A stretch of DNA of 64,000 nt from Phascolarctobacterium sp. (lineage in GTDB: Bacteria > Bacillota > Negativicutes > Acidaminococcales > Acidaminococcaceae): contig JAUNOC010000001.1 of NCBI GenBank assembly GCA_030531205.1, forward strand, positions 1-64,000. Direction: 5' to 3'. Both the position numbers and the translations under genes were made by a program. This document shows, one piece after another, positions 4,004 through 44,515 of the stretch. The notes under the pieces were generated by a model. The model was not told where the DNA came from. It ran no database searches and saw only the letters and a list, made by a program, of their open reading frames with translations. Position 1 is the first letter of the stretch, and each line of letters starts with the position of its first letter.

Positions 4004-4345
4004 CTCTTCACTTTCATTTCAAAAAAATTCTCACTTCCAAAAATGAAAAAATCGTGAAAAGTGAATTTCAAACTCGCGAGAGTTTATATCAAACTCGCGA
4101 GAGATTAACTTTTTAGTTTCACTGTTTTGAACGAAATTTTTTTTCCGTCTCTAATCACAAAGAACTTCTTACAAAATCTTTTCCCTCTTCTCTTCACTCT
4201 TATCACTGAAATCACTCTTCAGAAAAACGCAATTAAAAGCGTAAAAAGCGGTTTATAATCTTACGTAAGATTTCACAAATCTTACGTAAGATTATAAATG
4301 AGATTTTACTGTTCCAAACGCTTTTTAACACTGAGTGAAAAGCGA
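4004..4345. repeat. Palindrome-cassette repeat, copy 1
   Basis: This shares its arms with elements at 26005-26300 and 44300-44400. The left half has an arm (TTCACTCTTCACTTT..., ATGAAAAAATCGTGAAA) and then a pair of CTCGCGAG palindromes separated by a TATATC spacer (4073-4103). The right half has the arm AAACGCAATTAAAAGCGT and then two AATCTTACGTAAGATT palindromes (about 4257-4294), followed by GAGATTTTACTGTT. No coding potential is seen. It lies upstream of the betaine operon. Confidence 0.7.
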
Positions 4346-4364
4346 AATGAAAGTCTGCATAGCA

Positions 4365-5013
4365 ATTCACAATTCAAAATACACAGTTCACAATGAAGGT
4401 AAAATGTTCCTGTGATTAGAATAAGGGCAAAGGATTTAGGAATCAGGATTCAGGGAAATTATAATGCGTAATTCGCAATGCGTAATGCGTAATTATGGTA
4501 AAATGTTCCTGCGATTAAAATAAAAAATTACAGGAACATGAGTAGCCCCCGCCCTTGCGGGGGCTGTCGCCGATAAGTTTTTAGCAGGGCGACTGGGGGT
4601 GCGGATTACGCAGAAAACTTGCCACTGCCTGCCGACATTGTGCAAAGCCATGCTTTGCCAGGGTGCGGGACCTTGCCTACGGCAAGAACCCGTCCCCCTA
4701 CAACATACGCCTAACACCTAAATTATAATCACAGGAACATTTTACCATATTTGGTCTTTGTTCTTTGTTCTTTGACATTTATTCTAGACAAAGCGTCAAC
4801 CTAATTGCTCACCCCACCACCGTCTTTCTATGTTCCTTTAGACGGTCCTTTACCTCGCTGGACAAACCCGAATTTCTCGGCGACAGTCCACTGGACTGTC
4901 TACCCCTTTAGGTGCGGACGAGAGTTCGCAAAACCCCGCACTCCTGAAACCCAAAATCTAATCACAGGAACATCCTACCATAATTACGCATTCCGCATTA
5001 CACATTACGCATT
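4365..5013. repeat. Intergenic mosaic of core repeats, 7-bp arrays and hairpins
   Basis: Cores in one orientation start at 4398 and 4497 (GGTAAAATGTTCCTGTGATT type); inverted cores lie at 4726-4747 and 4959-4980. Heptamer arrays abut the GGT/ACC ends: CAATTCA units (4365-4399), AATGCGT units (4464-4496), TTTGTTC units (4749-4780) and ATTACGC units (4981-5013). Between them are hairpins: AGCCCCCGC/GCGGGGGCT (4544-4565), ACCGTCT/AGACGGT with a 14-nt loop (4819-4846) and GACAGTCC/GGACTGTC (about 4880-4898). No real gene is evident. Confidence 0.75.
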
Positions 5014-5042
5014 AAAAAAGACCCCAAGCAACGCTCAGGGCC
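5014..5042 (-). terminator. Rho-independent terminator downstream of DASS carrier 2
   Basis: Read on the minus strand, CCCTGAGC-GTT-GCTTGGGG pairs through two G-U wobbles and is followed by TTTTTT. It serves the carrier ending at 5189, about 145 bp upstream. Confidence 0.6.
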
Positions 5043-5049
5043 TTTTTGT

Positions 5050-5187
5050 TTCCTGTCATCCAACTGACGAAGTTAATATCGTGTTTAGACAAGGCACGAG
5101 GAAAATTTTGGACGAGATAGACCTTGCGGTCATCGAGGTCAAAATTATTCCGAGTAACGCAGTATAAACCGATAGTAACGAGTTAAA
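5050..5187. other. Unexplained segment between terminator and DASS stop codon
   Basis: On the plus strand, 5066-5166 reads as an open stretch ending ...VIEVKIIPSNAV and a stop, without a start of its own. The same bases can form a long-range stem (AATTTTGGAC with GTCAAAATT, one bulge) around an ACCT/AGGT hairpin. It is transcribed as the 3' UTR of the minus-strand carrier. I do not recognise it. Confidence 0.3.
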
Positions 5188-5188
5188 A

Positions 5189-6478
5189 TTAGTGGAAGAA
5201 CGGCCAAATCATAGGCAGTAATACTACAGTTACTACGAAAGCAACGAGTACCAGAGGTACGCCGGCTTTGACATAGTCATTGAAGTGATAACCGCCAGGG
5301 CCAAGCACCAATGTGTTCGGAGGAGTACCTACAGGAGTTGCAAATGCGCAGGAAGCGGCAACTGCAATTGCTGCCAATACGGCCTTCGGGTCAGCACCCA
5401 ATTTTGCCGCGATTTCAATACCAATCGGGCAAAGCAGAGCGGCGGATGCAGTGTTGCTCATGAATTGGGTCAAACCGCAGGAAAGGATGAAGAGCACAAT
5501 GGTACAAACAATCGGAGAAGGTTCGCCACCCATAGCGCTTACAGCGTAGTTGGCGATTAACTTGCCCGCACCGGTCTTATCCAATGCTTTGGATACAGGC
5601 ATCATTCCAGCGAACAGGAAAATGGTTACCCAGTCAATGGAAGCGTATGCTTGTTTTTCAGTCAGGCAGCCGGTCAGAACGCAAACGATAGCGCCAACGA
5701 TAGCAGCAATTTCCAAAGTGATTCCCAACTTCTTGCCGAACGCCATTGCAACAACAGCCAACAGCAATACTGCAGCGGAAATCATTTGTTTGGTGGAAGA
5801 AGTGTCAGTTGCTTCAACTTCTTGTTCAATCTCCTGGTCAGCATCCAATTCTGCTTTGGGCAGGAAATACTTGCCTACAAACATCATGTAGAGCATACCA
5901 GCCAAAGATACAGGAATACCGATCAAAGCCCATTCAAAGAAGCCGAAAGGCACGGATACAACCTTGCCGGAATCAATTGCCTGATTCAAGAAACCGGTAG
6001 CAATTGTGTTAGGAGGAGTACCAACCATGGTGATGATACCACCCCAGCCGCAAGCGAATGCCAAAGGCATCAACTGACGGGAAGCGGGAATCTTTGCTGC
6101 TGCACAGATACCCAGTGCAACGGGCAACAGGCAAGCGCAGGTACCGGTGTTGGACAATACGGAACTCAAAGCGGTGCCAACCAACATCAGACCGAACATC
6201 AAGCTGTTTTCACTCTTGCCGCAAAGTTTAACAACGGTATTACCGATGTTTTGGGCAAGGCCGGTGTAGAACATTGCCGCACCGACAATAAACATACCTG
6301 CAAACAATACTACTGTGGAATCAGCCAAACCAGTGAATACTTGTTTGACAGGAATAAAGCCGAGCAAGCCGCAAGCAACGGCGCCCAGCATGGAAGTAAC
6401 GGCCAAAGGAATGATTTCGGTAATAAAGCATACGGCCACTACTGCCAACAAAATTAAGCATTTTACTGCTTGGGACAT
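5189..6478 (-). CDS. SLC13/DASS family sodium:dicarboxylate symporter
   Basis: 429 residues from the ATG at 6478, chosen over an upstream in-frame start because of the AAAGGAGGGAAACATT ribosome-binding site. The SLC13 fold is clear from two SNT motifs (LSNTGT near residue 130, MSNTAS near 340), each followed by a GTPPN signature (about 170 and 385), with 10-12 hydrophobic segments. The likely role is sodium-driven uptake of succinate, fumarate or a related carboxylate at the inner membrane. It lies directly downstream of a Crp/Fnr gene but is separated from it by a terminator. It is nearly identical in its first 176 residues to the truncated copy at the window start. Confidence 0.92.
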   Translation of the reverse strand: MSQAVKCLILLAVVAVCFITEIIPLAVTSMLGAVACGLLGFIPVKQVFTGLADSTVVLFAGMFIVGAAMFYTGLAQNIGNTVVKLCGKSENSLMFGLMLVGTALSSVLSNTGTCACLLPVALGICAAAKIPASRQLMPLAFACGWGGIITMVGTPPNTIATGFLNQAIDSGKVVSVPFGFFEWALIGIPVSLAGMLYMMFVGKYFLPKAELDADQEIEQEVEATDTSSTKQMISAAVLLLAVVAMAFGKKLGITLEIAAIVGAIVCVLTGCLTEKQAYASIDWVTIFLFAGMMPVSKALDKTGAGKLIANYAVSAMGGEPSPIVCTIVLFILSCGLTQFMSNTASAALLCPIGIEIAAKLGADPKAVLAAIAVAASCAFATPVGTPPNTLVLGPGGYHFNDYVKAGVPLVLVAFVVTVVLLPMIWPFFH

Positions 6479-6555
6479 AATGTTTCCCTCCTTTAATAAA
6501 TTTTTTAGCACCCCACACAGAGTGCCGATTGTTGATTGTATGTTATAATAATATA

Positions 6556-6589
6556 AAAAGGGCTTTGTTGACCTTTGCAACAAACGCCC
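6556..6589 (-). terminator. Terminator after the Crp/Fnr gene, containing a TTTGTTG/CAACAAA dyad
   Basis: On the minus strand, GGGC(g)TTTGTTG-loop-CAACAAAGCCC is followed by TTTTTAT. The inner dyad (centre 6574) resembles the TGTTGC operators elsewhere but has a 17-bp, not 16-bp, layout. A double role is possible; terminator is the better supported reading. Confidence 0.65.
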
Positions 6590-6636
6590 CTCTGTAGCTA
6601 CTTTGATTATCTAAAAATCTCTTTTTGTAAGTTTTT

Positions 6637-7305
6637 TTAGTTTTTTAATAAAGTAAAAGTGTTTTTCTCAAACTTAATCAGCCCTTCATCCCGCATACGG
6701 CACAGTTCCCTGGTCATGGCACTGCGGTCTGCATCAAGATAGTTTGCCATATCCGTCCGATTGAAAGGCAATTCAAAAGTCGGAGAATTGTGCAGTTGTG
6801 ACTCCTGCTCCAAATAAGCCATAACCTTTCCCCGCAAACTCCGCTTGCCCAGTATATCCACTTTTGCCAACAATTTGGCTGTATTTTGACCGCTGATTTC
6901 CAGCAAGTTATTAAAAAATTTGCTGTACAACTCTACATCTTGGATAATCTTTATAGTCAGACGGTCAAAGTTCAACATAAAAACATCACTGTCCTCCACC
7001 ACCAAATAACTGAGAATGCTGTGATGACGGGCAGCAAAATTATTCTCTGCGAAGGTATCACCCGGCTGCAAATTACCTAAAATACTCTTTTCCCCGGCAA
7101 TGTCTTCCTTAACGATTTGTACTTTGCCATTGATAACCACACAGAGATTGTCAATATCATCCCCGGCTAAATATACATAATCATTACGGTTAAAGTGCTT
7201 CACCAGCACCCCCGTACGGCTAAGCAAATCCTTCACCTGGTCAAGGGTAAAACCCTTAAATAAAGATGTTTGTGCAATCTCTTCCGTTGTTACTCTGTTC
7301 GCCAT
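6637..7305 (-). CDS. Crp/Fnr family transcriptional regulator
   Basis: 222 residues. The N-terminal cyclic-nucleotide-binding fold (about 15-135; GKVQIV and GDTFAENN strands) is followed by the dimerisation helix and a C-terminal winged HTH (about 150-220). Its recognition helix has the sequence DRSAMTREL. The glutamate that CRP uses to read TGTGA is replaced by serine, so a different operator is expected. There is no N-terminal cysteine cluster of the FNR [4Fe-4S] type. The gene sits between a DASS carrier and a two-component system, and TGTTGC-type dyads stand at -41.5 before three carrier/decarboxylase promoters nearby. The ligand is unknown. The ribosome-binding site (GGAG) is buried in a perfect hairpin. 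Confidence 0.9.
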   Translation of the reverse strand: MANRVTTEEIAQTSLFKGFTLDQVKDLLSRTGVLVKHFNRNDYVYLAGDDIDNLCVVINGKVQIVKEDIAGEKSILGNLQPGDTFAENNFAARHHSILSYLVVEDSDVFMLNFDRLTIKIIQDVELYSKFFNNLLEISGQNTAKLLAKVDILGKRSLRGKVMAYLEQESQLHNSPTFELPFNRTDMANYLDADRSAMTRELCRMRDEGLIKFEKNTFTLLKN

Positions 7306-7310
7306 AAAAA

Positions 7311-7341
7311 TTTCTCCTATATGTCAATTATATAGGAGAAA
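7311..7341 (-). promoter_or_regulatory. Perfect 12-bp inverted repeat sequestering the Shine-Dalgarno of the Crp/Fnr gene
   Basis: TTTCTCCTATAT and ATATAGGAGAAA are separated by a 7-nt loop. On the mRNA the downstream arm contains the AGGAG ribosome-binding site, 6-10 nt before the ATG. It could act as an RNA switch or, as DNA, as an autoregulatory operator. Confidence 0.6.
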
Positions 7342-7380
7342 TAGTGAAATTGCAAATCTTAATTAGTTTTCTAAATATTA

Positions 7381-8085
7381 TCAATGGGTATAGACATTTA
7401 GCAAATCGGACTTTTTGTCCACGCATAAATACTTATACACTGGGCGTCCCACACTGCCCCTGTGCAAATCCAGTTTCAAAAGTCCAATGTCCTTCAAAAA
7501 TTCCAAATATTTACGGATGGACACACGGCTGATGCCCACCTTGGTGCTTACTTCTTCTGTGGAAAACATTCCTTCAAAACTGCAAATCTTTTCCCACACT
7601 ACCATTAGGGTATGTTTGTCCAACCCCTTAGGCAGAGTAGTCATATTAACCTTTTCCTGATGAATAATGGCTTTGTCCAATTGTTCCTGCTGCAACATAT
7701 TCTGGTCTTCCACAATCCTGTGGCGATTTTGATAATTGGAAAGGGCAAGATTGAACCGCTCAAATTCAAAGGGTTTAATAATATAGTCCACCGCCCCCAA
7801 ACGCAAGCCCTGTTTTATTTTGTCATTGTCATTGGCAGCAGTAACCATAATCACATCCACATCATAGCCCTTTTCCCGTACCTTTGCCAAAAATTGCAAG
7901 CCGTCCATGCCGGGCATAAAAACATCCAGAATGATTAAATCAAAATTTTTCTTTTCCAGCATTTTCAAGGCATCCGCACCATTCCGTGCCAAACCGCCAA
8001 ACCGAAACCCGGAAATCTGACTCAAATAATGCTCGTGAAGTTGTGCCACCATAGGGTCATCTTCTACTACTAAAACATTAAACAT
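7381..8085 (-). CDS. Response regulator of the CitB/DcuR type
   Basis: 234 residues. The receiver domain (about 1-120) has the acidic pair ED near residue 10, the phospho-acceptor Asp in LDVFMPG and the KPF motif. The C-terminal DNA-binding part has a helix-turn-helix (TEEVSTKVGISRVSIRKYLE) as in CitB/DcuR/DctR regulators. The start at 8085 is preferred because AGAGGTG lies at proper distance; an upstream GTG is the Shine-Dalgarno itself. It overlaps the sensor kinase gene, so the pair is coupled. Regulators of this class control carboxylate transport and metabolism, matching the neighbouring DASS and decarboxylase genes. Confidence 0.92.
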   Translation of the reverse strand: MFNVLVVEDDPMVAQLHEHYLSQISGFRFGGLARNGADALKMLEKKNFDLIILDVFMPGMDGLQFLAKVREKGYDVDVIMVTAANDNDKIKQGLRLGAVDYIIKPFEFERFNLALSNYQNRHRIVEDQNMLQQEQLDKAIIHQEKVNMTTLPKGLDKHTLMVVWEKICSFEGMFSTEEVSTKVGISRVSIRKYLEFLKDIGLLKLDLHRGSVGRPVYKYLCVDKKSDLLNVYTH

Positions 8086-9748
8086 TTGTTTCACCTCTTT
8101 TCTTTACCGGCAACCGCACTGTGAAAATTGTGCCTTCACCCGGTTCTGATTCCGCGGAAATAGTCCCGTCCAAATTTTCTATACTGTGCTTTACCAGGTA
8201 AAGCCCAAAGCCATGTCCTGCACCCTTGTTAGAATAGCCACGTTGAAAGATTTTTTTCAGTTCCCCTTTTTTAATACCCGGACCGGAGTCCTCCACTTCA
8301 ATGACAATTTCCTTGTCAAAGTCAATGATGGAAAGATTCATAATTCTTTCCCCTTCATAATTTCTTAAAGCATCAAAGGCATTTTCAATCAAGTTACCGA
8401 TAATCAAAACCAAATCATGAACTGAGGGCATAATCAATTCGCTGTGCAATTCTGATTCTTCGGAAAAAGTGAACTCAACTGCCAGTTCCCGGGAGCGTGC
8501 CATTTTCCCAAGCACAAACCCTGCCAAAGTAATATCCTTCAGACGGGTTACTACATAACTTACTTCACTCTGCCGGTTCTGGGCAATTTCCTTAGTGTAT
8601 TTCTTCAAGTCATCATAGGCCTTCATGTCTATCAGTCCCATAATGACGTGCATTTTATTCATAAATTCATGGGTCTGGGCCCGAAGGGCGGTGGCGTAAT
8701 TTTTGAAACCCGTCAGTTGGTTTGCCAATTCAAACACATCGCTCTTACGCCGAAAAGTAACCACTGCACCAATAATATTTTGCTGGACAAAAATAGGTAC
8801 TGCCGTCACCATGAACACATTGTCACCTAAATTCAAAGGAGCATTGGTCAACATTCTGCCATTACCAATGATTTCATCCCAGGGAATGCCGGGCAAACGG
8901 TCTTTGGCATCGCTATATTCCAAACTGTCCACATCACCAGCATTGGCTTCACTAAGCAAAGCCAGTGCTTCCTGATTAATCAAAGTAATAATCCCCTGAA
9001 CATTCACATTAATAACCCCCTCCCGCACGGAATTTAGAATTACATTCCGTTCCTGCAAAAGAGTGGCAATCTCCTGTGGTTCCAATCCAAAAAGAATTTT
9101 CTTAATATGCCGGGCAAGATATACCGCGCCAATAATACCTATGAAGAGACCAAATAAACTGCAAATGCCTAAAAAGATTATGGACTCAATAGTGGAATTA
9201 TTGAATAATTCATTAGAATAACCAGTAACAACATACCCCACCCGCTTGCCTGTTTTATCAGTTACAAAGCCAATGGCTTTGTTGGGAATGGCGTAATTCT
9301 GACTATAGGTAATAGTTTCGTACTTGCAGTACTGCTCCACAAGTTCCCTGGCACTCTCCCTAAAACCGTCCAGCCGTGCCGGATTATAATAAACCGCCAA
9401 TTCTTTGTTAATATTAAAAATAGCAACACTGGCCTCATCGGAATCATCCACATGATTTACATAATCAAACATAAAATCACTGACTTCCTGCTCTGTTCCG
9501 GAACGGGTGCCACTAATACCCTCAATTATTTCATTGGAATTACAAAGAATGCTGTTAATGCTCACTGCGTTAATGCTAACCCTGTCATAAATAACCTTAG
9601 CAACACGCAGGGTTGTGAATACGGATGAAGGCAAAATAGCAAAAAGCACCACTATACTTACCAGTAACACAATTTTCTGGCTTAGCGGTATGCTTCTTGT
9701 CAAAGTATGGTAATTTAAATCCTTAGTCCCAAAATCTTTTTTAATCAT
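8078..9748 (-). CDS. Sensor histidine kinase of the CitA/DcuS type
   Basis: 556 residues. One membrane helix (about 25-45), an extracytoplasmic PAS-like sensor (about 50-185), a second helix (about 190-215), a cytoplasmic PAS (about 230-330) and a kinase domain. The kinase has the phospho-acceptor His in RAQTHEF, N box NLIENAFDAL, G1 DSGPGI and G2 GHGFGLYLVK. The family senses extracellular C4-dicarboxylates or citrate. The gene has no visible Shine-Dalgarno and a TATAAT sits 7 nt before the ATG, so it may be leaderless (its -35 is poor). It likely controls the DASS carriers and/or the decarboxylase subunits next door. Confidence 0.92.
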   Translation of the reverse strand: MIKKDFGTKDLNYHTLTRSIPLSQKIVLLVSIVVLFAILPSSVFTTLRVAKVIYDRVSINAVSINSILCNSNEIIEGISGTRSGTEQEVSDFMFDYVNHVDDSDEASVAIFNINKELAVYYNPARLDGFRESARELVEQYCKYETITYSQNYAIPNKAIGFVTDKTGKRVGYVVTGYSNELFNNSTIESIIFLGICSLFGLFIGIIGAVYLARHIKKILFGLEPQEIATLLQERNVILNSVREGVINVNVQGIITLINQEALALLSEANAGDVDSLEYSDAKDRLPGIPWDEIIGNGRMLTNAPLNLGDNVFMVTAVPIFVQQNIIGAVVTFRRKSDVFELANQLTGFKNYATALRAQTHEFMNKMHVIMGLIDMKAYDDLKKYTKEIAQNRQSEVSYVVTRLKDITLAGFVLGKMARSRELAVEFTFSEESELHSELIMPSVHDLVLIIGNLIENAFDALRNYEGERIMNLSIIDFDKEIVIEVEDSGPGIKKGELKKIFQRGYSNKGAGHGFGLYLVKHSIENLDGTISAESEPGEGTIFTVRLPVKKRGETNV

Positions 9749-9830
9749 TTTTTAAATTATAACATATCATTATATGACCTGCCCTACTGAATTTATTTTG
9801 TAATTAAAAAAAGTGACAAATACATTATAT

Positions 9831-9857
9831 AAAAAGCCCCCGCATTTGCGGGGGCTT
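9831..9857 (-). terminator. Terminator after sodium-pump beta subunit copy 1
   Basis: AAGCCCCCGC-ATTT-GCGGGGGCTT forms a 10-bp stem; on the minus strand it is followed by TTTTT. The gene ends at 9896. Confidence 0.85.
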
Positions 9858-9895
9858 GAGTTATTTGGGGAGTTAATAACTAAGAGATGAAATAA

Positions 9896-11023
9896 TTATT
9901 TGCCTTGAGGACCAACCATAGCGAGCATGGTGCCTGCAGCAACTGCAGTACCAATAACGCCTGCTACGTTCGGACCCATAGCATGCATCAACAAGAAGTT
10001 GGAAGGATTTGCCTTTTGACCAACAACTTGGGATACACGGGCAGCCATAGGAACTGCGGATACGCCGGCGGAACCAATCAAAGGATTGGTAACACCGTCA
10101 ACATAGTACATCAATTTACCAAAGATACAACCAGCAAAAGTACCGCCAATGAATGCTACCAAGCCCAAGCAAATAATCAAAATGGTTTGGTAATTCAAGA
10201 ACGAATCAGCACTCATGGTGCAGCCGGTACCAGTAGCCAAGAAAATGGTTACAATGTTCATCAAAGCGTTTTGTGCGGTGTCACAAAGACGGTCCAAACA
10301 GCCCGCTTCTTTGAACAAGTTACCCAACATCAACATACCAATCAAAGCGGTAACGGAGGGCAACAACAAGGAAATAACAATGGTACACATAATGGGGAAT
10401 ACGACCTTTTCAAAATGGGAAACAGGACGCAATTGTTTCATAACAATTTGACGTTCCTTCTTGGTTGTGCAGAGCATCATTACAGGGGGTTGGATCAAAG
10501 GAACCAAACTCATGTAGGAATATGCTGCAACGGCGATAGCGCCCAACAGTTGGGGAGCCATCTTGGCTGCCAAGTAAATGGAAGTCGGGCCGTCAGCACC
10601 ACCGATAATACCGATTGCACATGCTTCTTGAACATTGAAGCCAAGGAGCATAGCACCCAACATTGCTACGAATACGCCTGCTTGTGCAGCAGCGCCGAGC
10701 AACAAGGTCTTGGGGTTAGCAATCAACGGGCCGAAGTCGGTCATTGCACCTACACCCAAGAAAATCAACGGCGGGAATACTTCGTGGTTAATGCCGTAAG
10801 CGATTACAGCCATAACACCGGGTTCTTCAAAACCGTTTTTAGGAATATTAGCCAAAATACAACCAAATGCGATTGGGCTTAACAACAAAGGTTCAAAACC
10901 TTTGCCAATAGCCATGTACAACAATACCAAGCCGACAAAAATCATAATGAGATGACCAGTGGTCAAAGCACTAAAGCCGGAATCAGCCCAGATTGAAGCA
11001 ATAGCAACTAAAAATGCTTCCAT
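9896..11023 (-). CDS. Sodium ion-translocating decarboxylase beta subunit (OadB/MmdB/GcdB family), copy 1
   Basis: 375 residues, about nine membrane segments. The family motif GGADGPTSIYLA (about residues 140-151) contains the aspartate used for Na+ binding; the C-terminal NPLIGSAGVSAVPMAARV segment is also characteristic. The subunit couples decarboxylation of a carboxybiotin carrier to Na+ export. In succinate-fermenting Negativicutes the cognate enzyme is methylmalonyl-CoA decarboxylase; oxaloacetate or glutaconyl-CoA enzymes are alternatives. No carboxyltransferase or biotin carrier is in the window. It is preceded by a 44-codon OadG-like gene. It is nearly identical to copy 2; differences cluster at the N-terminus and around residue 305-310. 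Confidence 0.93.
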   Translation of the reverse strand: MEAFLVAIASIWADSGFSALTTGHLIMIFVGLVLLYMAIGKGFEPLLLSPIAFGCILANIPKNGFEEPGVMAVIAYGINHEVFPPLIFLGVGAMTDFGPLIANPKTLLLGAAAQAGVFVAMLGAMLLGFNVQEACAIGIIGGADGPTSIYLAAKMAPQLLGAIAVAAYSYMSLVPLIQPPVMMLCTTKKERQIVMKQLRPVSHFEKVVFPIMCTIVISLLLPSVTALIGMLMLGNLFKEAGCLDRLCDTAQNALMNIVTIFLATGTGCTMSADSFLNYQTILIICLGLVAFIGGTFAGCIFGKLMYYVDGVTNPLIGSAGVSAVPMAARVSQVVGQKANPSNFLLMHAMGPNVAGVIGTAVAAGTMLAMVGPQGK

Positions 11024-11059
11024 CAGAAAATCCTCCTCAAAAAATAAAAATAAGTGCGT

Positions 11060-11129
11060 TCGCTATACCATAGCGAGGTTAAAATGCCCAACACAAAACG
11101 GGCAGGACTTGAGTTCTCCCCTAACTCAA
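11060..11129 (-). other. Three small hairpins in the spacer between OadG-like and beta-subunit genes, copy 1
   Basis: TCGCTAT/ATAGCGA (11060-11076), TGCCC/GGGCA (11085-11104) and TTGAGTT/AACTCAA (11109-11129) tile the 106-nt intercistronic spacer. The same set occurs in copy 2 with changes that stay pairable in minus-strand RNA. It may tune stability or relative expression of the two subunits. Confidence 0.5.
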
Positions 11130-26004: not shown

Positions 26005-26390
26005 TGTTTTCACTCTTCACTTTACTTTCAAAAAAATTCTCTCAGCCAAAAATGAAAAAATCGTGAAACAATAAATTTCCACTGTCGACATTTTCAGCGA
26101 TAATGTCGACACCGAAACTTTTTACTTTTATGATTTTGAATAAAAATAAAAGTCCTTTTCACACCAAAAGCATTTTCATTACTAAAATTACTCTTCAACA
26201 AAACGCAGTTAAAAGCGTGGAAAGTTAATTTCAAAATCGCGAGATTTTATATCAAAGTCGCGCGATTTTGAAATTGAGATTATGCTGTTTTGAATAAAAA
26301 AATCCTGTGATTGATTTTTAATCACAGGAACATTTTACCTTTAATTTACAACTTCTAACCTAAACTATCAACTTAACTTGCTGCCGCAAA
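26005..26390. repeat. Palindrome-cassette repeat, copy 2, joined to a core repeat and 7-bp array
   Basis: The same arms as copy 1 (TTCACTCTTCACTTT, ATGAAAAAATCGTGAAA, AAACGCAGTTAAAAGCGT, CTGTTTTGAATAAAA), but the palindromes differ: TGTCGACATT/AATGTCGACA in the left half and AAAATC-GCGA-GATTTT plus a related CGCGCG copy in the right half. It ends in TCCTGTGATT, which can pair with the inverted core at 26319-26340; a heptamer array (TACAACT, TCTAACC) follows, up to the end of the next gene. Confidence 0.72.
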
Positions 26391-37410: not shown

Positions 37411-37860
37411 TTATTTGTCAGCAGCTTTCAATGCATCCATAATAACCTTGTGATTGGTCTCCAAGAATTTCAAGATTTCAATCACAATAGCATGAACCAT
37501 AACAGGTTCAAATTTGTCTTCTGCGAAAATCAAGGGAGCGTTCAACAATACGTCGCCATTGTCGGTAACGGTAACTTTGAACATTCTGAGGCCATTGTTC
37601 AGGTTGTTGACAATCTTAGCAACCTTTGCATAACCCTTAACTGCAGCCATACCCAATTGAACTTGGATCAAAGAGTAAACACTGCCATCCAACAGAATTG
37701 CTGCGGGAAGTTTTTCACCGCTCTTCAATTCCATATTTACGCGGAAAATGCCGGTCTTCATAGCATCTTCAACATTTTGCAAAGCGAACATATCCAATTT
37801 GTTCTCTTTGAAATATTTGTCTAATTTTTCTACCTTTGCATTCAATTTTACATCAGCCAT
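37411..37860 (-). CDS. Hypothetical protein, paralogue of the next upstream gene (149 aa)
   Basis: 149 residues, no signal peptide or membrane helix. Predicted alternation of helices and strands; aligned along its length with the gene at 37886-38350 (shared ENK-MF--QNV, ILLD-SVY-L-QVQL, N-RMFK-T, GDV-LN-P, EI-KFLE). The layout resembles YbjN-type chaperone-like folds, but I cannot assign a family. AGGAGGATAGAATT precedes the ATG. Confidence 0.8.
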   Translation of the reverse strand: MADVKLNAKVEKLDKYFKENKLDMFALQNVEDAMKTGIFRVNMELKSGEKLPAAILLDGSVYSLIQVQLGMAAVKGYAKVAKIVNNLNNGLRMFKVTVTDNGDVLLNAPLIFAEDKFEPVMVHAIVIEILKFLETNHKVIMDALKAADK

Positions 37861-37885
37861 AATTCTATCCTCCTAAAATTCACAA

Positions 37886-38350
37886 TTATCTTGCACTGGT
37901 CCAAACTTGAGCCATGAAGCCAGCGTATTCAACTTCCAAGAACTTAATGATTTCAACCAAAATTGCATTCATCAATGCGGGGTTGAAGTCGTCATCCTTG
38001 AAGGTCATGGGAACATTCAACATAACATCGCCTGCAGCGGAGATGGTGAACTTAAACATACGTACGCGGTTGTTGCATTGGTTCAAATAGGTGGAAACCT
38101 TTTCAAAAGCATCACCAACTGCTACAGCGGGAGCCAATTGAACTTGTACTAATGCGTAAACGCTTTGATCCAAGAGAATTGCGAAGGGCAACAATTGACC
38201 CTTTACTGCCATTTTGGAACGGAAGATAGTGGTCTGTGCTTCATCGTTCACATTTTGGTCTTGGAACATTTCCATTTTGTTTTCTGCAAAGAACGCTTTC
38301 AACTTTGCTGCCTTTGCACTTACTTTTTCATCAACTTTCTTTTCAGCCAT
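37886..38350 (-). CDS. Hypothetical protein, paralogue of the downstream gene (154 aa)
   Basis: 154 residues from the ATG at 38350 (AAGGAG upstream; a longer reading starts inside the Shine-Dalgarno). Lysine-rich N-terminus, then the same ~130-residue domain as the gene at 37411-37860. The two form a short operon ending at the terminator 37366-37401. The recent duplication with retained charge pattern suggests a heteromeric pair. Confidence 0.8.
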   Translation of the reverse strand: MAEKKVDEKVSAKAAKLKAFFAENKMEMFQDQNVNDEAQTTIFRSKMAVKGQLLPFAILLDQSVYALVQVQLAPAVAVGDAFEKVSTYLNQCNNRVRMFKFTISAAGDVMLNVPMTFKDDDFNPALMNAILVEIIKFLEVEYAGFMAQVWTSAR

Positions 38351-38559
38351 GATTTTTTTCTCCTTTTCTTTCAATTCATTTTCGGGGGAAGCCCCGATTG
38401 CTGTTGGTTTGTCTCAACCTTTTGACTATATTGTAGCCCACGTAAAAGCACTTTGCAACAAAAATTTTCAAATTTCTTTATCAATTTTGCTAAAATTGCG
38501 CAATTTCACTACTCTCTATCCGCAATATTCTAAAATTATAAAATATAATTGCAAAATAA

Positions 38560-38597
38560 TTGCTCCAAAAACACTTTTGCAAGCATCTTTGGAGCAA
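38560..38597 (-). terminator. Terminator after the TrpXYZ-like ABC operon
   Basis: TTGCTCCAAA and TTTGGAGCAA form a 10-bp stem with a long loop; TTATTTT follows on the minus strand. The operon ends at 38637. Confidence 0.6.
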
Positions 38598-38636
38598 CCT
38601 TTTGCTGATTTTATTCTATTCCCTTAAACAAATTTT

Positions 38637-39431
38637 CTAACCTAATAATACGCTATCGCTGGCGAACTCACTGCCGGCGGCCTTTTCAAAGAGTTCCAGT
38701 AAATCCTTAATTTGCAAACGGGACTTTTCTTCACCCTTCACGTCGACTACTACCTGCCCATTATTCATCATTATCAAACGATTGCCAAAACGCAGGGCAT
38801 CTCGCATATTATGAGTAATCATCAGGGTTGTTAAGTTGTCACGGCTGACAATTTTATTTGTCAAGTTCAAAACCTTTTCTGCCGTCTTGGGGTCAAGAGC
38901 CGCTGTGTGTTCATCTAGCAAAAGCAATTCCGGCTTTTTCATAGTTGCCATAAGCAAAGTCAAGGCCTGACGCTGACCGCCACTCAACAAGCCGACTTTT
39001 GCAGACAGACGGTCTTCCAATCCTAAATCTAGTTCTGCCAGCATTTCCCGAAATTTGTTTTGTTGTTCGCCGCCCAACATAAATTTCAGCCCCGGCTTTT
39101 CCCCACGTCGCATAGCCAAAGCAAGATTTTCTTCAATCATCATGCCTGCTGCCGTACCTAACATAGGGTCTTGGAACACCCTGCCAATGTATTTAGCACG
39201 TTTATGCTCCGCCAATTTTGTTACATCCACATCATTGATTAAAATCCGTCCGGAATCAACCAGGAACACACCGGCTACTGAATTCAGCAAAGTAGATTTG
39301 CCCGCACCGTTGCCACCAATTACCGTCACAAAATCACCGGGCAGAAGATGCAAACTCAAATTGTGCAAAGCCACCTTTTCATTGATAGTGCCGGGGAAAA
39401 ATGTTTTGGAAATGTTTTCTATCTTTAACAT
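38637..39431 (-). CDS. ABC transporter ATP-binding protein (TrpXYZ-like system)
   Basis: 264 residues. Walker A GGNGAGKST (about 38-46), signature LSGGQRQAL and Walker B LLLLDEHTAALD. It is the ATPase for the permease encoded 2 bp upstream and the binding protein at 40464-41447. This ABC class (substrate-binding family PF04392) transports tryptophan or related compounds in several Firmicutes. Confidence 0.9.
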   Translation of the reverse strand: MLKIENISKTFFPGTINEKVALHNLSLHLLPGDFVTVIGGNGAGKSTLLNSVAGVFLVDSGRILINDVDVTKLAEHKRAKYIGRVFQDPMLGTAAGMMIEENLALAMRRGEKPGLKFMLGGEQQNKFREMLAELDLGLEDRLSAKVGLLSGGQRQALTLLMATMKKPELLLLDEHTAALDPKTAEKVLNLTNKIVSRDNLTTLMITHNMRDALRFGNRLIMMNNGQVVVDVKGEEKSRLQIKDLLELFEKAAGSEFASDSVLLG

Positions 39432-39432
39432 C

Positions 39433-40311
39433 TCAACGCACCACCTTTCCCAGTTTACTCTTAATCAAAGGCATGGCCAACGCAATGGCCACCAGCACAC
39501 TGGTAAAAAGTTTCAAATCATTAGGCGGCATACCCATAGCCAGCACGGTTGCCACTACTATACGATATACAATGGAACCAAGCACCACACTAATTAAACA
39601 ATTCTTAAATGAACGAGTGCCAAACAACACCTCTCCAATAATTACGGATGCCAAGCCGATAACAATAATGCCAACACCCATGCCTACATCCGCAAAACCA
39701 TTGGACTGGGCTACCAACGCTCCACTGACTGCCACCAACGCATTGGAAATAGCCAAACCCATAACAATGGTGATATTAGTATTTATGCCTTGAGCCCTAA
39801 TCATCTGTTGATTAAAACCTGTGGCACGAATAGCAGTGCCAATCTCTGTACCAAAGAACCAGTACATAGCACAGGCCACAATAATGCAAGCCCCCAAACC
39901 CACAATGAAAGTAGTAGGCCCCGCCTTCATTTCCAACACCCGTTTCATAATGCTGAAAGTATGCTCCACTCCAAGAAGGGACAAATTGGCCTTGCCCATA
40001 ATCCGCAAATTCACGGAATAAAGTGCTATCATAGTTAAAATTCCTGCAAGCAAAGCGGGAATTTTCATTTTGGTATGCAAAAAGCCGGTGACTACACCGG
40101 CCAGCATACCTGCGAATGCTGCCATTGCCAAAGCAGTTATGGGGTTACAACCCTTGGTCAAAAGCAATGCCGCCACTGCCCCGCCCAACGGGAACGAACC
40201 CTCAACGCTCAAATCAGCAATATCCAACACTCTGAATGTAATATATAACCCTAATGCCATAACTGCCCACAGCAGTCCTTGGGCTACTGTGGGCAACAAC
40301 AAACTAATCAT
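39433..40311 (-). CDS. ABC transporter permease (TrpXYZ-like system)
   Basis: 292 residues, about eight membrane segments of the LivH/RbsC-like permease fold (ITFRVLDIADLSVEGSF near residue 23). Partner of the adjacent ATPase. It is separated from the binding-protein gene by 150 bp containing a core/heptamer repeat, which may change relative expression. Confidence 0.9.
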   Translation of the reverse strand: MISLLLPTVAQGLLWAVMALGLYITFRVLDIADLSVEGSFPLGGAVAALLLTKGCNPITALAMAAFAGMLAGVVTGFLHTKMKIPALLAGILTMIALYSVNLRIMGKANLSLLGVEHTFSIMKRVLEMKAGPTTFIVGLGACIIVACAMYWFFGTEIGTAIRATGFNQQMIRAQGINTNITIVMGLAISNALVAVSGALVAQSNGFADVGMGVGIIVIGLASVIIGEVLFGTRSFKNCLISVVLGSIVYRIVVATVLAMGMPPNDLKLFTSVLVAIALAMPLIKSKLGKVVR

Positions 40312-40337
40312 ATCTACCTCAATCTTATAATAGTTTC

Positions 40338-40463
40338 AATTAAAAATTATAAGTTAAAAATTATGAATTGTGGACAATTTTCGCTTTGCGAAAATTCCCA
40401 ATTATAATCACAGGAACATCTTACCATAATTTTTAATTTTTCATTTTTAACTTTTAATTATTA
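40338..40463. repeat. Core repeat, AATTTTCGC hairpin and 7-bp arrays between ABC genes
   Basis: Arrays AAAAATT-ATAAGTT (40340-40372), the hairpin ATTTTCGC-TTT-GCGAAAAT (about 40377-40395), inverted core at 40405-40426 and the array AATTTTT-CATTTTT-AACTTTT running into the stop codon at 40464. The same hairpin occurs at 49792-49812. Confidence 0.75.
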
Positions 40464-41447
40464 TTAGCCCACCATCTTGGCGTTTTTGAATTCCTTGGGT
40501 AATTTTAAGCCGAGGGTTTTCAATGCTTTAGCATTCACAACAGCAGCGCATTCCTTCTGTCCTTGAATTGCCATAGTGGCAGGTTGTGCCTTACCTTTCA
40601 AAATATCTGCAGCCATCATGCCGGTCTGTACGCCCAAGGTGTAATAATCAATGCCTAAACTGCCCAAGCATCCTGCCTCAACGAAACTGCCTTCACCAGC
40701 TACAACGGGAATCTTTTCTTCATCCGTAATACTGAGCAATGTTGGCACGGCACTTGCTAACACATTATCCGTGGGAATATAAATCCCTTCCACTTTACCT
40801 ACTAAACTGCGTGCCGCCTGCTGGATATCATTCACGGTACTAACTGTGGCTTCTTTTACCTGCAGACCACATTTAGCAGCGGCCGCTTTCAAAATCTCCA
40901 CCTGCAACTGGCTGTTCACTTCGCTGCTGCTGTAAATAGTTCCTACGGTCTTCATATTGGGAACAAATTTCATCAGCATCTTCAACTGTTCTTCCACAGG
41001 ATTCATATCCGTGGTGCCGGTTACATTGGCACCAGGTTTTTCATTGGTCTTTGCCAATTTAGCCACCACATAATCTGTAATAGCAGTACCAACAATAGGA
41101 ATCTCATCCGTGGCATTGGCAATGGTCTGTGCCGCCGGGGTGGCAATGGCACAAATCAAATCCACCCTGTTAGAAATAAAACGATGCGCAATGTTGGCCA
41201 AATTGGATTGGTCCGCTTGCGCATTCTGCTGGTCAATTTTGAGATTTACACCCTCTTTGAAACCCGCTTTTGCCAAGCCGTCCACAAAACCCCTGTTAGC
41301 CGCATCCAATGCTCCGTGTTCCACCAACTGGCAAACACCCACATTGAACGTTTTGCCTGCCTCCACCTGTGCCGCAGCCATCGTCATACCGGCTGTCAGC
41401 GTGAGGGCAAGCCCCAAACGGGCAAATCTCTTCAATACATTTTTCAT
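40464..41447 (-). CDS. ABC transporter substrate-binding protein (PF04392 family, TrpX-like)
   Basis: About 327 residues starting MKNVLKRFARLG; signal peptide with cleavage near VEA-GKT. Two Rossmann-like lobes (FNVGVCQLVEHGALDAA, ICAIATPAAQTIANAT, VGTAITDYV). The expected ligand is tryptophan or another aromatic/indole compound by family; it fits the Trp-regulated trpB2 7 kb away, but no T-box is present here. It has its own promoter with a dyad across the start site. Confidence 0.9.
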   Translation of the reverse strand: MKNVLKRFARLGLALTLTAGMTMAAAQVEAGKTFNVGVCQLVEHGALDAANRGFVDGLAKAGFKEGVNLKIDQQNAQADQSNLANIAHRFISNRVDLICAIATPAAQTIANATDEIPIVGTAITDYVVAKLAKTNEKPGANVTGTTDMNPVEEQLKMLMKFVPNMKTVGTIYSSSEVNSQLQVEILKAAAAKCGLQVKEATVSTVNDIQQAARSLVGKVEGIYIPTDNVLASAVPTLLSITDEEKIPVVAGEGSFVEAGCLGSLGIDYYTLGVQTGMMAADILKGKAQPATMAIQGQKECAAVVNAKALKTLGLKLPKEFKNAKMVG

Positions 41448-41483
41448 TTTTTCTACCATCCTTCCATGCTACAAACCGTCCAC

Positions 41484-41531
41484 ACTTGTGAACATGTCCA
41501 GTATTATAACGATTATCCCGGTATATGGCAA
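41484..41531 (-). promoter_or_regulatory. Promoter of the TrpX-like gene with a dyad over +1
   Basis: TTGCCA (41531-41526), 17 bp, TATAAT (41508-41503); start predicted near 41496. ACTTGT-GA-ACATGT at 41484-41497 covers about -1 to +13, a position suited to a repressor. Confidence 0.55.
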
Positions 41532-41601
41532 GCACAAATTATGTTTTTTTTTATTTTACATAATTCTTTGTAAAGATTTTACAATAGCAATCACCATGCT
41601 T

Positions 41602-41613
41602 TTGTGCTATAAT
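41602..41613 (+). promoter_or_regulatory. Extended -10 promoter before tatD
   Basis: TTGTGCTATAAT, with the TGn extension. The predicted start is 2 nt before the ATG at 41622; no ribosome-binding site is present, suggesting a leaderless mRNA. Confidence 0.5.
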
Positions 41614-41621
41614 AGTTTATT

Positions 41622-42404
41622 ATGAGTAGAACAGGTTTGTGGGATACCCATGCCCACCTTGACGACAGTCAATTTGATAAAGACAGGGACGCTCTCTGTG
41701 CAGAACTGGCAGAAACACTTGAGGGGGTCATCAATCCCGGAGTGGATGAAGAAAGCAGCGAATTTGCCATTTCGTTGGCAGAAAAATATCCCTTTATCTA
41801 TGCCGCTGTGGGCTGGCACCCGGAAGAATTAAGAAACATTCCCAAGGACTATGAGGACAAAATTGCCAACTGGGCAAAACATCCCAAAGTGGTAGCAATC
41901 GGGGAAATCGGCCTTGATTATTATTGGATGGAGAACGAACCCCCTGCGGTACAGAAAGCCATTCTTCTGCGGCATTTAGATTTATGTAAACAATTGGACT
42001 TGCCCTTTATCTTTCATGACAGAGAAGCGCACGGCGACACTTTAGAGATTTTTCAAAAAGAAATCACCGGCATACGGGGCGTATTCCATTGCTTCAGTGG
42101 CAGTTTGGAAATGGCAAAAGAACTTGCCAAACGGGGATTCTACTTTGGCTTTGGCGGCACCAGCACTTATAAAAATTCTCAAAAAACACGGGAGGTTCTA
42201 AGTTGGGTGCCAAGAGAGTTAATGCTTTTTGAAACGGACTCGCCCTATTTAAGCCCAATTCCATTTAGAGGCAAGCGCAACAATCCTGCTTATACTGAAT
42301 ACACCGCCAAAAATGCAGCTCTATTGCTTGGATGCAGTATGGAAGAATTGGCGGAGCAAACAACTAAAAATGTTTTGACCTTATTCAAAAAAATTCCCCG
42401 CTAA
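41622..42404 (+). CDS. tatD: TatD family metal-dependent DNase
   Basis: 260 residues. Metal ligands in DTHAHLDD (8-15), GEIGLDYYW (about 91-99), HDREAH, HCFSGS and ETDSPYLSP (about 207-215): the complete TatD set. It is a 3'-5' exonuclease/DNase of the amidohydrolase fold. The ATG is preceded by an extended -10 box at 9 nt and no Shine-Dalgarno. Confidence 0.93.
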   Translation: MSRTGLWDTHAHLDDSQFDKDRDALCAELAETLEGVINPGVDEESSEFAISLAEKYPFIYAAVGWHPEELRNIPKDYEDKIANWAKHPKVVAIGEIGLDYYWMENEPPAVQKAILLRHLDLCKQLDLPFIFHDREAHGDTLEIFQKEITGIRGVFHCFSGSLEMAKELAKRGFYFGFGGTSTYKNSQKTREVLSWVPRELMLFETDSPYLSPIPFRGKRNNPAYTEYTAKNAALLLGCSMEELAEQTTKNVLTLFKKIPR

Positions 42405-42417
42405 TGCGGGGAATTTT
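42387..42417. terminator. Terminator overlapping the tatD stop codon
   Basis: AAATTCCCCGC-TAAT-GCGGGGAATTT; the stop codon lies in the loop. It also serves the convergent gene ending at 42423. Confidence 0.9.
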
Positions 42418-42422
42418 CATTT

Positions 42423-43271
42423 CTATTTTCTTTGCTCTTGAACAATTTTCTTAATCACATCATAGGCATAATTCTGGCAATACTTGCTGGCCTTAAAGTA
42501 AAAATCTTCTTCGCCCCAATCCATGCCGCCTCTTACGCTGTTGGCAGTTTGCTCAACCAATTCATTATTGCAAATTACCCTTACGCCCAAGAAAGGAATC
42601 CCATATTTCAAGCAAACACTTGCCACACCATAACTTTCCATATCTTCACAAATGGTACCCATTTCCTTGTGCAAATAGTCAATGTAATCGCACTCCCTGT
42701 TCCACACATCACCGCTATTACCAATTCCTACATATACTTTACCATGAGGATAAGCAACCTTTTGTGCCAATGCCAACATTTTGGCATCTGCCGGCACATA
42801 ACGGGTACGAATCCATTGACCGTCTTGGAAAATCTCTAAATCATGGTAGTTCCAATCCTCATCGTTACTACCTTCACCTCTTGCTCTCGGCTCCGTATCA
42901 TAGCAGTTAGTATTGCAGATTTTTTCCTGTAATACAATATCGTAAATCTTCATAGTGTCAACATGTGCTCCTGCTGTTCCAATGCCCAACACACACAAGG
43001 GTTTGAAACGCTCTGCCGCCAAAGTAACGGCGGAAGTGGCATTTGTCAATCCCATTTGGGTCTGCAACACCACCACAGGATAACCGTCAATTTTGCCGGT
43101 GGCATATTTATGGCCAAAAGTCGTAGCAAATTTTGGTTTTTCCAATTTATTCATTAATTGAGCAATTTCCACATGCATAGCGCCCAAAACCACAATAGGT
43201 TTTGCACCTGCCAAACAGGTACTTGCCAATGCCAGCAATATGGTGAAAACTAATGCTAAAATTTTTTTCAT
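42423..43271 (-). CDS. Exported MTA/SAH nucleosidase-like phosphorylase-fold protein
   Basis: 282 residues. Signal peptide (cleavage near CLAGAKP, about 21), then the nucleoside phosphorylase fold: VLGAMHVEIAQLM, LGIGTAGAHV and the purine/ribose-binding DMESYGVASVC with ME and the later D in GMDWGEED. MTAN enzymes are normally cytosolic; export suggests a periplasmic role in nucleoside or signal salvage, as in a few described periplasmic MTANs. It forms an operon with a small exported protein upstream. Confidence 0.85.
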   Translation of the reverse strand: MKKILALVFTILLALASTCLAGAKPIVVLGAMHVEIAQLMNKLEKPKFATTFGHKYATGKIDGYPVVVLQTQMGLTNATSAVTLAAERFKPLCVLGIGTAGAHVDTMKIYDIVLQEKICNTNCYDTEPRARGEGSNDEDWNYHDLEIFQDGQWIRTRYVPADAKMLALAQKVAYPHGKVYVGIGNSGDVWNRECDYIDYLHKEMGTICEDMESYGVASVCLKYGIPFLGVRVICNNELVEQTANSVRGGMDWGEEDFYFKASKYCQNYAYDVIKKIVQEQRK

Positions 43272-43295
43272 TTTTCAACCTCACTAAGACTAAAA

Positions 43296-43742
43296 TTATT
43301 TCTTTTTATTGTTCTTATTCTTGTCAGCACCCTCCGGCATAAATTCCAGGGGAGTGAACTGATACATAATGATTTTACCATTGGGAGCGAAAATGACATC
43401 AACATGACCGCCACGATTAGGCGTAGTACCAATTATAACATAATTTAATTCGCTTACACCATCGGGGAAACGGTGAAAATTCTCTAATTTAACCTCTTTC
43501 GGATCCCCCAAATGCTGACGGATATTGGCAACCATATTTTGTAAATCTTTTTCCGTATGGTTTTCAAACCCTTCCAGCAATTTATAATATTCCACAAACG
43601 GTGTGGGATTTTCCTTGTTAAGGGTAGCCAGGAATTTATCCGCAGATTTTTCTAATTTTTCCAAATACTTGCCATTGCCTGCTGCAAAACAAGAACCGCA
43701 GACCAACAACGCTGAAAAAACAAACAAAAGAATCTTTTTCAA
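43296..43742 (-). CDS. Small exported hypothetical protein
   Basis: About 148 residues if translation starts at the TTG at 43742, which has GGAGGTG at ideal distance (an upstream ATG would add a non-hydrophobic leader). Signal peptide (KKILLFVFSALLVCGSCFA), then a helical region (KYLEKLEKSADKFLATL) and strands ending in a lysine/asparagine tail (NKNNKKK). No family recognised. Cotranscribed with the exported nucleosidase-like gene. Confidence 0.75.
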   Translation of the reverse strand: MKKILLFVFSALLVCGSCFAAGNGKYLEKLEKSADKFLATLNKENPTPFVEYYKLLEGFENHTEKDLQNMVANIRQHLGDPKEVKLENFHRFPDGVSELNYVIIGTTPNRGGHVDVIFAPNGKIIMYQFTPLEFMPEGADKNKNNKKK

Positions 43743-43883
43743 TCTTCTCACCTCCAAACATAAATTGCGTTTTATTATTATACCTTTATTTATAATTATT
43801 TTCAAGTGTTGAACCTAGACCATACTGCCACATCTTATCTCTCTTATTTTATTTTTAGAACAAAAAAACTAAAATTCCTTTCC

Positions 43884-44515
43884 TTTTTTGGTTGCAAAAA
43901 CAAAACTCATGTCTATTATACAGTAAGGAAGTTTTGAAAAATATTTTGATTTTTGGTTATAAAATCAAATCTTATGTCTATTATATTAGTGAGAGAAATA
44001 TCAATACAAAAAATCGGCTTTTGTGCTGATTTATTTTTCACATGTCCAATATCATATGAGATTACACCCAATCTCATATGATATTCAGCCATTGTCAGAA
44101 AGTTTTCAAAATTTTTCTTTCGCCTTCGGCGTTCGCCACAAAATAATTTTTTTAATGCTCAATCTGATATCAGACTTACCCCAATCTGATATCAGATTGG
44201 ACATCACGTAAAAATTTTTTCCTTTTGCTTTTTGCTTTAGCGTCAAAATTATATACATTTAGTGTCAAGTGTATATAATTTTGGCGCTTTTTTATTTTTA
44301 CTCATCAGAAAAATGCAGTTAAAAGCGTGGAAAAGTGATTTCTAAAATGGCGACATTTTAGAAACTAAGATTTTGCTGTTTTGAATGAAAAAATCCTGTG
44401 ACTATTTCTAATCACAGGAACTTTTTACCATAATTGCGCATTGCGAATTACGCATTACGCATTATTCTTTGTCCTTTCCATCTAACCTGACACCTGAAAC
44501 CTCAAACCTGCCCCC
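43884..44515. repeat. Palindrome-cassette repeat, copy 3, with direct repeats, core and 7-bp arrays
   Basis: From left: two imperfect 36-37-bp direct repeats (43884-43920, 43949-43985); paired AATATCATATGAGATT and its inverse (44047-44084); paired AATCTGATATCAGATT-type palindromes (44160-44200); a 19-bp-stem hairpin (44240-44287); the conserved arm AAATGCAGTTAAAAGCGTGG; CTAAAATG-GCGA-CATTTTAG (44342-44361); CTGTTTTGAATGAAAA; inverted core 44409-44430; and arrays ATTACGC and CCTGAAA up to the next stop codon. Confidence 0.72.
44240..44297 (+). terminator. Strong plus-strand terminator-like hairpin with no plus-strand gene
   Basis: AGCGTCAAAATTATATACA pairs with TGTATATAATTTTGGCGCT (one G-U) and TTTTTTATTTTT follows. 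No plus-strand ORF lies upstream within this gap, so it either ends an unannotated RNA or is part of the repeat. Confidence 0.5.

Follow-up and report, generated by a model that had tools for sequence, protein, structure and literature searches.

Several described systems resemble the palindrome cassettes that are the subject of this report. RptR from E. coli defence islands, a four-helix protein of 9 kDa, has been compared to basic leucine zipper (bZIP) proteins by its authors; it binds as a homodimer to a short palindrome, reads the single conserved site TAGCTA with its recognition helix alpha4 and has several palindrome copies in its own promoter, two sites being needed for strong repression (PMC12255303). 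Bacterial bZIP-like proteins had been claimed earlier, namely TodS (PMC12255303) and Nach of Endozoicomonas (PMC6213907). In Cluster A mycobacteriophages, a repressor acts on stoperators, which are many dispersed sites, and the specificities have diversified among relatives (PMC9283540, PMC6550527). Moreover, REPINs are dispersed doublets of repetitive extragenic palindromic (REP) sequences that co-evolve with a protein family, the RAYTs, which are Y1 transposases (PMC3116915, PMC8266576). Here, we describe paired palindromes between constant arms at three loci in the first 64,000 nucleotides of contig JAUNOC010000001.1 of Phascolarctobacterium sp. (assembly GCA_030531205.1), a stretch that is called the window throughout. 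We interpret the palindromes as probable operators, arranged in pairs, of homodimeric, bZIP-analogous proteins that regulate their own genes; the window cassettes would be dispersed, gene-less copies of the leaders of the corresponding genes, with exchangeable operators.

A first-pass annotation of the window had reported arms and palindromes at three loci, and both were found where it had placed them. The modules are of an A type and a B type, which are recognised by the arm patterns AAAAATGAAAAAATCGTGAAA and ACGCARTTAAAAGCGTNNAAA, respectively. The modules and the putative operator pairs between their arms are as follows (the bar marks the centre of a palindrome):

4004..4145, + strand: solo module A of locus 1, read as a gene-less leader copy (outer limits approximate), arm match AAAAATGAAAAAATCGTGAAA at 4039-4059
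4070..4106, + strand: operator pair AAACTCGC|GAGAGTTT and AAACTCGC|GAGAGATT, centres 4077|4078 and 4098|4099, spacing 21
4222..4320, + strand: solo module B of locus 1 (outer limits approximate), arm match 4227-4247
4257..4293, + strand: operator pair AATCTTAC|GTAAGATT, present twice, centres 4264|4265 and 4285|4286, spacing 21
26005..26160, + strand: solo module A of locus 2 (outer limits approximate), arm match 26048-26068
26079..26115, + strand: operator pair CTGTC|GACA and ATGTC|GACAC, centres 26086|26087 and 26107|26108, spacing 21
26198..26300, + strand: solo module B of locus 2 (outer limits approximate), arm match 26203-26223
26233..26269, + strand: operator pair AAAATCGC|GAGATTTT and AAAGTCGC|GCGATTTT, centres 26240|26241 and 26261|26262, spacing 21
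44290..44400, + strand: solo module B of locus 3, arm match 44313-44333, with a single palindrome AAAATGGC|GACATTTT at 44344-44359

The genome that contains the window comprises 1.33 Mb in 15 contigs and is 98.78% complete. A search for the arms, which had been suggested as a check, returned about 20 places for each: 22 for ACGCARTTAAAAGCGTNNAAA with up to two mismatches and 21 for AAAAATGAAAAAATCGTGAAA with up to three, while both patterns reversed gave no match in the same genome. Downstream of 12 A-type matches a B-type match follows on the same strand, at a distance of exactly 155 bp in 11 cases and of 188 bp at locus 1 of the window. Four of the 43 modules lie in gene leaders and 39 are solo. 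That the palindrome changes from locus to locus holds genome-wide, with 17 distinct pair sequences in 33 solo modules. The palindromes had been described as usually present twice; a clear pair was found in these 33 of the 39 solo modules (16 B-type and 17 A-type), and locus 3 departs from the description by its single C|G palindrome. For the symmetry analysis, the 4 gene-linked modules, 3 with a single palindrome and 1 broken by an insertion sequence (IS) were left out, as were 2 further modules, in which either the centre is not complementary or the pair finder overlooked the pair. Across the remaining 33, identity is 0.78-0.89 in the arms and drops to 0.51-0.58 in the palindrome flanks. The arm pattern was matched in 6 of 61 genomes, namely the genome itself and five others, the latter with 2 mismatches each; its occurrence in 7 named records of a genome collection was put down to chance, and the exact pattern did not occur in viral contigs.

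Symmetry is preserved although the sequence is not, as the first-pass annotation had stated. At positions 2-6 from the centre, symmetry amounts to 0.824 within copies versus 0.459 between copies, and none of 20000 permutations reached the observed value; the within-copy figure is inflated because the pairs were located by maximising symmetry with a complementary central base pair required. All 34 sites of the 17 distinct solo pairs have a C|G centre, of which only the complementarity was imposed by the procedure. Beyond the earlier description, the distance between the two palindromes is nearly fixed. A de novo scan that was blind to the arms and allowed spacings of 12-60 bp was applied to the window and to stretches of contigs C6 and C10 (426 kb), and it revealed 18 inverted-similar pairs with centre spacings of 18 bp (1), 20 bp (1), 21 bp (10) and 22 bp (6). 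Thus, 17 of the 18 pairs, one of the 18 being the leader of a protein gene, are spaced by 20-22 bp, and ten first-order Markov controls for the same scan contained no pairs. An earlier scan with other settings had given 15 pairs, at 21 bp (9) and 22 bp (6), with 1 control pair in three repeats. In the sibling species G002 (197 kb from 40 contigs, two of which were picked because they carry members of the protein family), all 6 pairs have a spacing of 20-21 bp and four of them are solo; in the sibling G001 (111 kb), one pair with a spacing of 21 bp was found, again in a gene leader. Three genomes of the same taxonomic family that lack the proteins (G025, G010 and G007) served as controls. G025 gave 1 pair in 400 kb, at 32 bp, and G010 none in 110 kb; the result for G007 is given below. 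Two turns of B-DNA correspond to 21 bp, and a spacing of about this size suggests that two protein dimers sit on the same helix face.

The pairs are linked to a family of protein genes. Four arm matches are located directly upstream of an open frame whose product has an N-terminal motif like CKRYRLKKKLQEAADK. The proteins have 173-236 residues with the start codons as chosen in the analysis, and their basic N-terminal motifs are variants of ExxKRYRxKKKL. Nine paralogs were found in the genome and more in the two sibling species, some of them broken or cut by contig ends. When up to 220 bp upstream of 13 paralog start sites were searched with spacings of 16-26 bp, a strong pair (score 24-30) appeared at 20 or 21 bp ahead of 10 of the 13 starts, one of these ten leaders belonging to a broken gene on contig C94 of G002. 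Most palindromes in the leaders have a C|G centre; exceptions are the pair of C10:124k, which consists of A/T only, and the second palindrome of C10:48k, with its T|G centre. Seven of the ten pair-bearing leaders contain a sigma-70-like promoter (1-3 mismatches) ahead of the pair; counted from the start of its -10 box, the first pair centre follows after 21-22 bp in four genes and after 58-59 bp in three. The best promoter candidate of C13:52k overlaps the pair, and no good promoter was found upstream of the G001 gene and of the broken G002 gene. Moreover, the pair at 26233..26269 in the window and the leader pair of the paralog on contig C5 are of the same type.

The operator and the N-terminus of the protein change together. 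From about position +70 to the stop codon, the genes C10:48k and C7 do not differ at the DNA level, and their promoters are about 90% identical; over the operator, the 5' untranslated region (5'UTR) and the first codons, identity drops to 17-73% per 30-column window and the operators differ. The same pattern of divergence, at a lower overall identity, is seen between C10:124k and C10:169k, whose proteins are 85% identical, yet their operators are TTTAT|A and TTGAC|G, respectively. Conversely, C10:169k and a G002 protein are only 34% identical, yet they have in common the TTGAC|GTC core and the motif EH[HS]KR[FS]RKR. The operator thus tracks the motif and not the overall kinship of the proteins. 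In a tree of 12 proteins, the spacing of 20 bp groups with the C10:124k, C10:169k and G002 C191 proteins and that of 21 bp with the C5, C7, C10:48k and C13:88k proteins; C13:52k (20 bp) and the G001 gene (21 bp) are poorly resolved. Within the conserved core from E7 to L18, positions 8 and 9 are the most variable (2.66 and 2.60 bits), and R11, K17 and L18 are invariant. All 9 paralogs that have a C|G pair carry Arg13, and the 4 others do not (Fisher p 0.0014), a statistic from which relatedness was not removed and which is overstated because two of the four proteins without Arg13 are close relatives (58% identity); the T|G centre in C10:48k is a further reservation. These four have Q (with the T|A-rich pair), Y, Y and K (without a pair) at this position.

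The following mechanism is the most likely explanation of these observations. Small, genus-restricted proteins would be expressed from leaders with two mostly C|G-centred palindromes 20 or 21 bp apart, and each protein would bind its own pair as two homodimers that sit side by side on one helix face. Recognition may be achieved by the N-terminal basic helix (ExxKRYRxKKKL), which would function like the basic region of bZIP proteins, two such helices gripping a short palindrome within one major groove as bZIP proteins do. A comparable arrangement has been proposed for RptR (PMC12255303). The protein bound to the pair would repress its own promoter. Specificity would shift when the operator and the recognition helix change jointly, with the rest of the gene unchanged, which has apparently happened repeatedly in the family. 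DNA binding, dimerisation, autorepression, the binding of solo copies and the way of dispersal are what we infer from these patterns. Among the three explanations that had been offered for the cassettes, a family of binding-site pairs is best supported, by the spacing of 20-22 bp and by the same architecture in the paralog leaders. Selection on palindromy itself, which had also been proposed, is most plausibly understood as selection for sites with the symmetry of a homodimer.

The window cassettes would then be dispersed gene-less leader copies that have retained their operator pairs, most of which match a paralog that is still present. When 4-base half-sites were compared, those of the paralogs of the same genome being entered by hand, all four half-sites matched a present paralog half-site in 21 of the 33 solo pairs and some of them in 3. 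Titration of the proteins is one possible role of the solo copies; alternatively, these copies may be targets of silencing by the proteins, or mere remnants. In G002, solo pairs of the ATCAC|GTGAT and GTGTC|GCCAC types have arms of their own, and another set of arms therefore shows the same interchangeability. A broken paralog in G002 follows a GTTAC|GTAAC pair. Downstream of gyrA, a gene-less GTGAC|GTTAC pair is present in the genome studied here and a GTTAC|GTAAC pair together with a broken paralog start in G002; the assignment of gyrA rests on Pfam in G002 and was made by eye for an 838-residue frame. The two positions are presumably the same place:

L107:11780-11830 and L138:1-215: gyrA-downstream pairs, own genome and G002

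Several observations weigh against an interpretation as operators of this protein family. Three of the 13 paralogs have no pair (best scores 15-19), and 9 of the 33 solo pairs, all of the TTAC and TCAC types, match no present paralog. Moreover, the solo copies are not consistently ahead of a gene that they could drive: by a crude reading-frame rule, the open reading frame to the right of a solo module shares its strand in 12 of 37 cases, and in 3 of these 12 it encodes the IS transposase. Positions 2-5 and 27 of the proteins are as variable (2.57-2.66 bits) as positions 8 and 9, and variability alone therefore cannot single out contact residues. The control genome G007 gave 4 pairs in 200 kb, at 21, 22, 24 and 37 bp, at least 3 of which read as terminator hairpins; spacing alone is thus not specific, because a genome without the family yielded pairs at 21 and 22 bp. 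No bZIP match was obtained with Pfam (12 full proteins and 10 N-terminal segments) or among PDB sequences. Finally, the two palindromes of a pair are more complementary to each other (0.876 at positions 2-6) than each is to itself (0.824), as in a long hairpin, and the putative operators are located in 5'UTRs, where the proteins might instead bind RNA.

The last two points bring up an RNA-based explanation, in which one long or two small hairpins in the 5'UTR are bound by the basic protein on its own mRNA for autogenous translational control and the solo copies are small RNAs or structures at mRNA ends. The location of the pairs agrees with this in 7 of the 10 pair-bearing paralogs, where a sigma-70-like promoter lies on one side and the start codon on the other, and a GCGA centre, which occurs in some palindromes, would give a GNRA loop. 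However, RNA could form a hairpin from arms that are not themselves palindromic, and it does not call for the spacing of 20-22 bp, for which there is no obvious reason in RNA; the C|G centres at all 34 sites also speak against it. Likewise, TATAAT at the position held in the C13:88k gene copy is absent from all 19 A-type solo copies; C13:52k, the other gene with an A-type arm, also lacks it there. An Rfam search of the window at the gathering score returned two tRNAs and nothing else. The structured RNA that the first-pass annotation had considered is therefore not favoured, given the Rfam result, the mostly self-palindromic halves and a spacing that follows the helical repeat of DNA, and we regard it as unlikely that RNA structure explains the pairs.

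The solo copies could also be non-autonomous transposons similar to REPINs or to miniature inverted-repeat transposable elements, with hairpins that are recognised by a transposase and palindromes that serve as transposition signals. Dispersed copies with conserved arms, pairs that look like REP doublets and two near-identical solo copies with different left flanks (C9:1013 and C9:11146) are in line with this idea. However, the palindromes vary among copies of one element and the same type of pair occurs in the leaders of protein genes. Moreover, a search for Y1 transposases (TnpA_REP-like, PF01797), which had been suggested as a check, gave no match in the genome itself, with 5 of 14 control genomes being positive; membership in the REPIN/RAYT system was rejected on this ground, and transposition signals of this kind have little likelihood of being the explanation. 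A non-autonomous element whose centre is rewritten, as had been proposed, does describe the solo copies, and the mobilising enzyme that it implies was not found in the genome. It is very improbable that the pairs are targets or relics of yet another enzyme, such as target sites of an IS30-type transposase or sites of a restriction-modification system. Of the 3 own-genome copies of the end of an IS30-like element, 2 abut or interrupt a module, the element adjoins a pair once in G002, and the palindromes contain hexamers typical of type II enzymes; the near-constant two-turn spacing, the position in paralog leaders and the joint divergence with the N-terminus are left unexplained by such enzymes. 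A bolder extension of the operator interpretation envisages an arms race over DNA specificity, in which a bZIP-analogous family with a fast-changing helix swaps the cassette of operator and recognition helix as a unit, non-autonomous repeats carry and switch dispersed operator pairs of many specificities and the proteins silence the repeats or help to spread them; this scenario is conceivable, and we consider it doubtful.

With the operator interpretation in mind, the comparison with the systems described above can be drawn more closely. Like RptR, the proteins have at least two short palindromes in their own promoter or leader, here at 10 of the 13 paralog starts. Unlike RptR, they are larger, their basic motif is N-terminal and variable, and the sites differ between most paralogs and are also dispersed; the conserved recognition helix and site of the RptR type were not found, as motif positions vary and sites differ. 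Eukaryotic bZIP proteins have C|G-centred palindromes such as ATGACGTCAT, CACGTG, GTTACGTAAC and AACGTT as their sites and a basic motif with variable positions between conserved Arg/Lys residues, the basic region reading N-x-x-A-A-x-x-(S/C)-R. The family resembles them in its short C|G-centred palindromes and in a basic motif with variable positions amid conserved Arg/Lys, and its motif (N/H/other)-x-E-x-x-K-R-(Y/F/S/C)-R was aligned with that of bZIP proteins by eye only. It differs from them in being restricted to one genus, and no long leucine zipper was seen in the proteins by eye. On the tests run, the family is a member of neither group and most likely functions by analogy with a bZIP or RptR-type repressor. 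The stoperators resemble the present sites in being numerous and dispersed and in the diversified specificities among relatives; in contrast to these phage sites, which are asymmetric and bound by a monomer (PMC9283540, PMC6550527), the palindromes described here are paired and embedded in conserved chromosomal arms, and the paralogs that were tried (one against phages, four against viral contigs) had no relative there. The dispersed palindrome doublets with a linked protein family are reminiscent of REPINs, but unlike the RAYTs the linked proteins have no Pfam relation to Y1 transposases. Autoregulated repressors with their operators are already known; this case is set apart by a diversified reader, by pairs two turns apart and by operator cassettes that are dispersed and interchangeable. 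If the interpretation is correct, this small genome and its siblings offer about ten natural combinations of a recognition helix with its cognate palindrome, some of them in proteins that are nearly identical elsewhere, and these would allow one to test how a helix that reads DNA can change in step with its site and still function. It would also add one more family to the few bacterial regulators likened to bZIP proteins (RptR, TodS and Nach) and explain dispersed bacterial palindromes other than by transposase recognition.

The family has a narrow distribution. It was found in 3 of 380 genomes of the class, all of this genus, and only in the genome itself in a sample of 398 genomes of the phylum, and none of 59 genomes of the taxonomic family contained a relative outside the genus (E 0.001). 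One paralog had no relative among plasmids. No match above the cut-off was obtained for 12 members with Pfam, whose matches below it were disregarded (best E 4e-4, Reov_VP3_GTase), or for 4 proteins with NCBIfam, where weak matches were also set aside. PHROGs gave nothing convincing for 3 proteins (best E 0.0035), and the weak PADLOC matches of 4 paralogs, below the cut-off, were disregarded. Among PDB sequences, the full profile had 4 weak matches, none of them convincing (amphiphysin twice, with the best E of 0.0042, an alanine-tRNA ligase and one other), and the 20 matches of a 13-row motif profile (E 0.089-1.0), none of which is a bZIP protein, were read as chance; they include a designed helix bundle, a tRNA methyltransferase and coagulation factor XI. 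The literature searches gave no account of this protein family or of such cassettes, which is no proof of absence. Paralog genes adjoin a RelB-type antitoxin gene and a HipA_C gene, and two of the solo pairs in G002 are located after small HTH_3 genes (these loci are L046, L041, L209 and L200).

Further repeats accompany the modules. A dispersed motif, TAATCACAGGAACATTTTACC, and its variants lie beside many modules, in the window at 4395-4540, 26300-26345 and 44390-44425. The pairs centred on CATATGA and GATATC that had been assigned to locus 3 do exist, as three pairs with a spacing of 22 bp; they belong, however, to a separate class of A/T-centred repeats (window 44045-44282):

44048..44085, no strand assigned: CATATG-type pair, spacing 22, found by the scan
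44161..44198, no strand assigned: pair CTGAT|ATCAG, spacing 22, found by the scan
44245..44282, no strand assigned: inverted pair TTAT|ATAC and GTAT|ATAA, spacing 22, found by eye and missed by the scan

This class comprises CATATG, GATATC and TATATA types at 22 bp, with 12 pairs at 7 loci of the genome, and no paralog gene was seen beside these 7 loci. Several of the repeats are joined to B modules. At the same position, some copies have a single palindrome and others a pair (L164, L165 and L161), which suggests loss or gain via recombination between the two palindromes. The IS30-like element mentioned above matches HTH_38 above the cut-off and rve below it, and it is located as follows:

L171, L172 and L173 (C6:236262, C10:75386 and C12:66202) and L133:3590-3694: IS30-like element

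Finally, a C|G-centred pseudo-palindrome pair with a spacing of 18 bp is present at 552-585 of the window, upstream of an apparent leftward gene, and may belong to another regulator.

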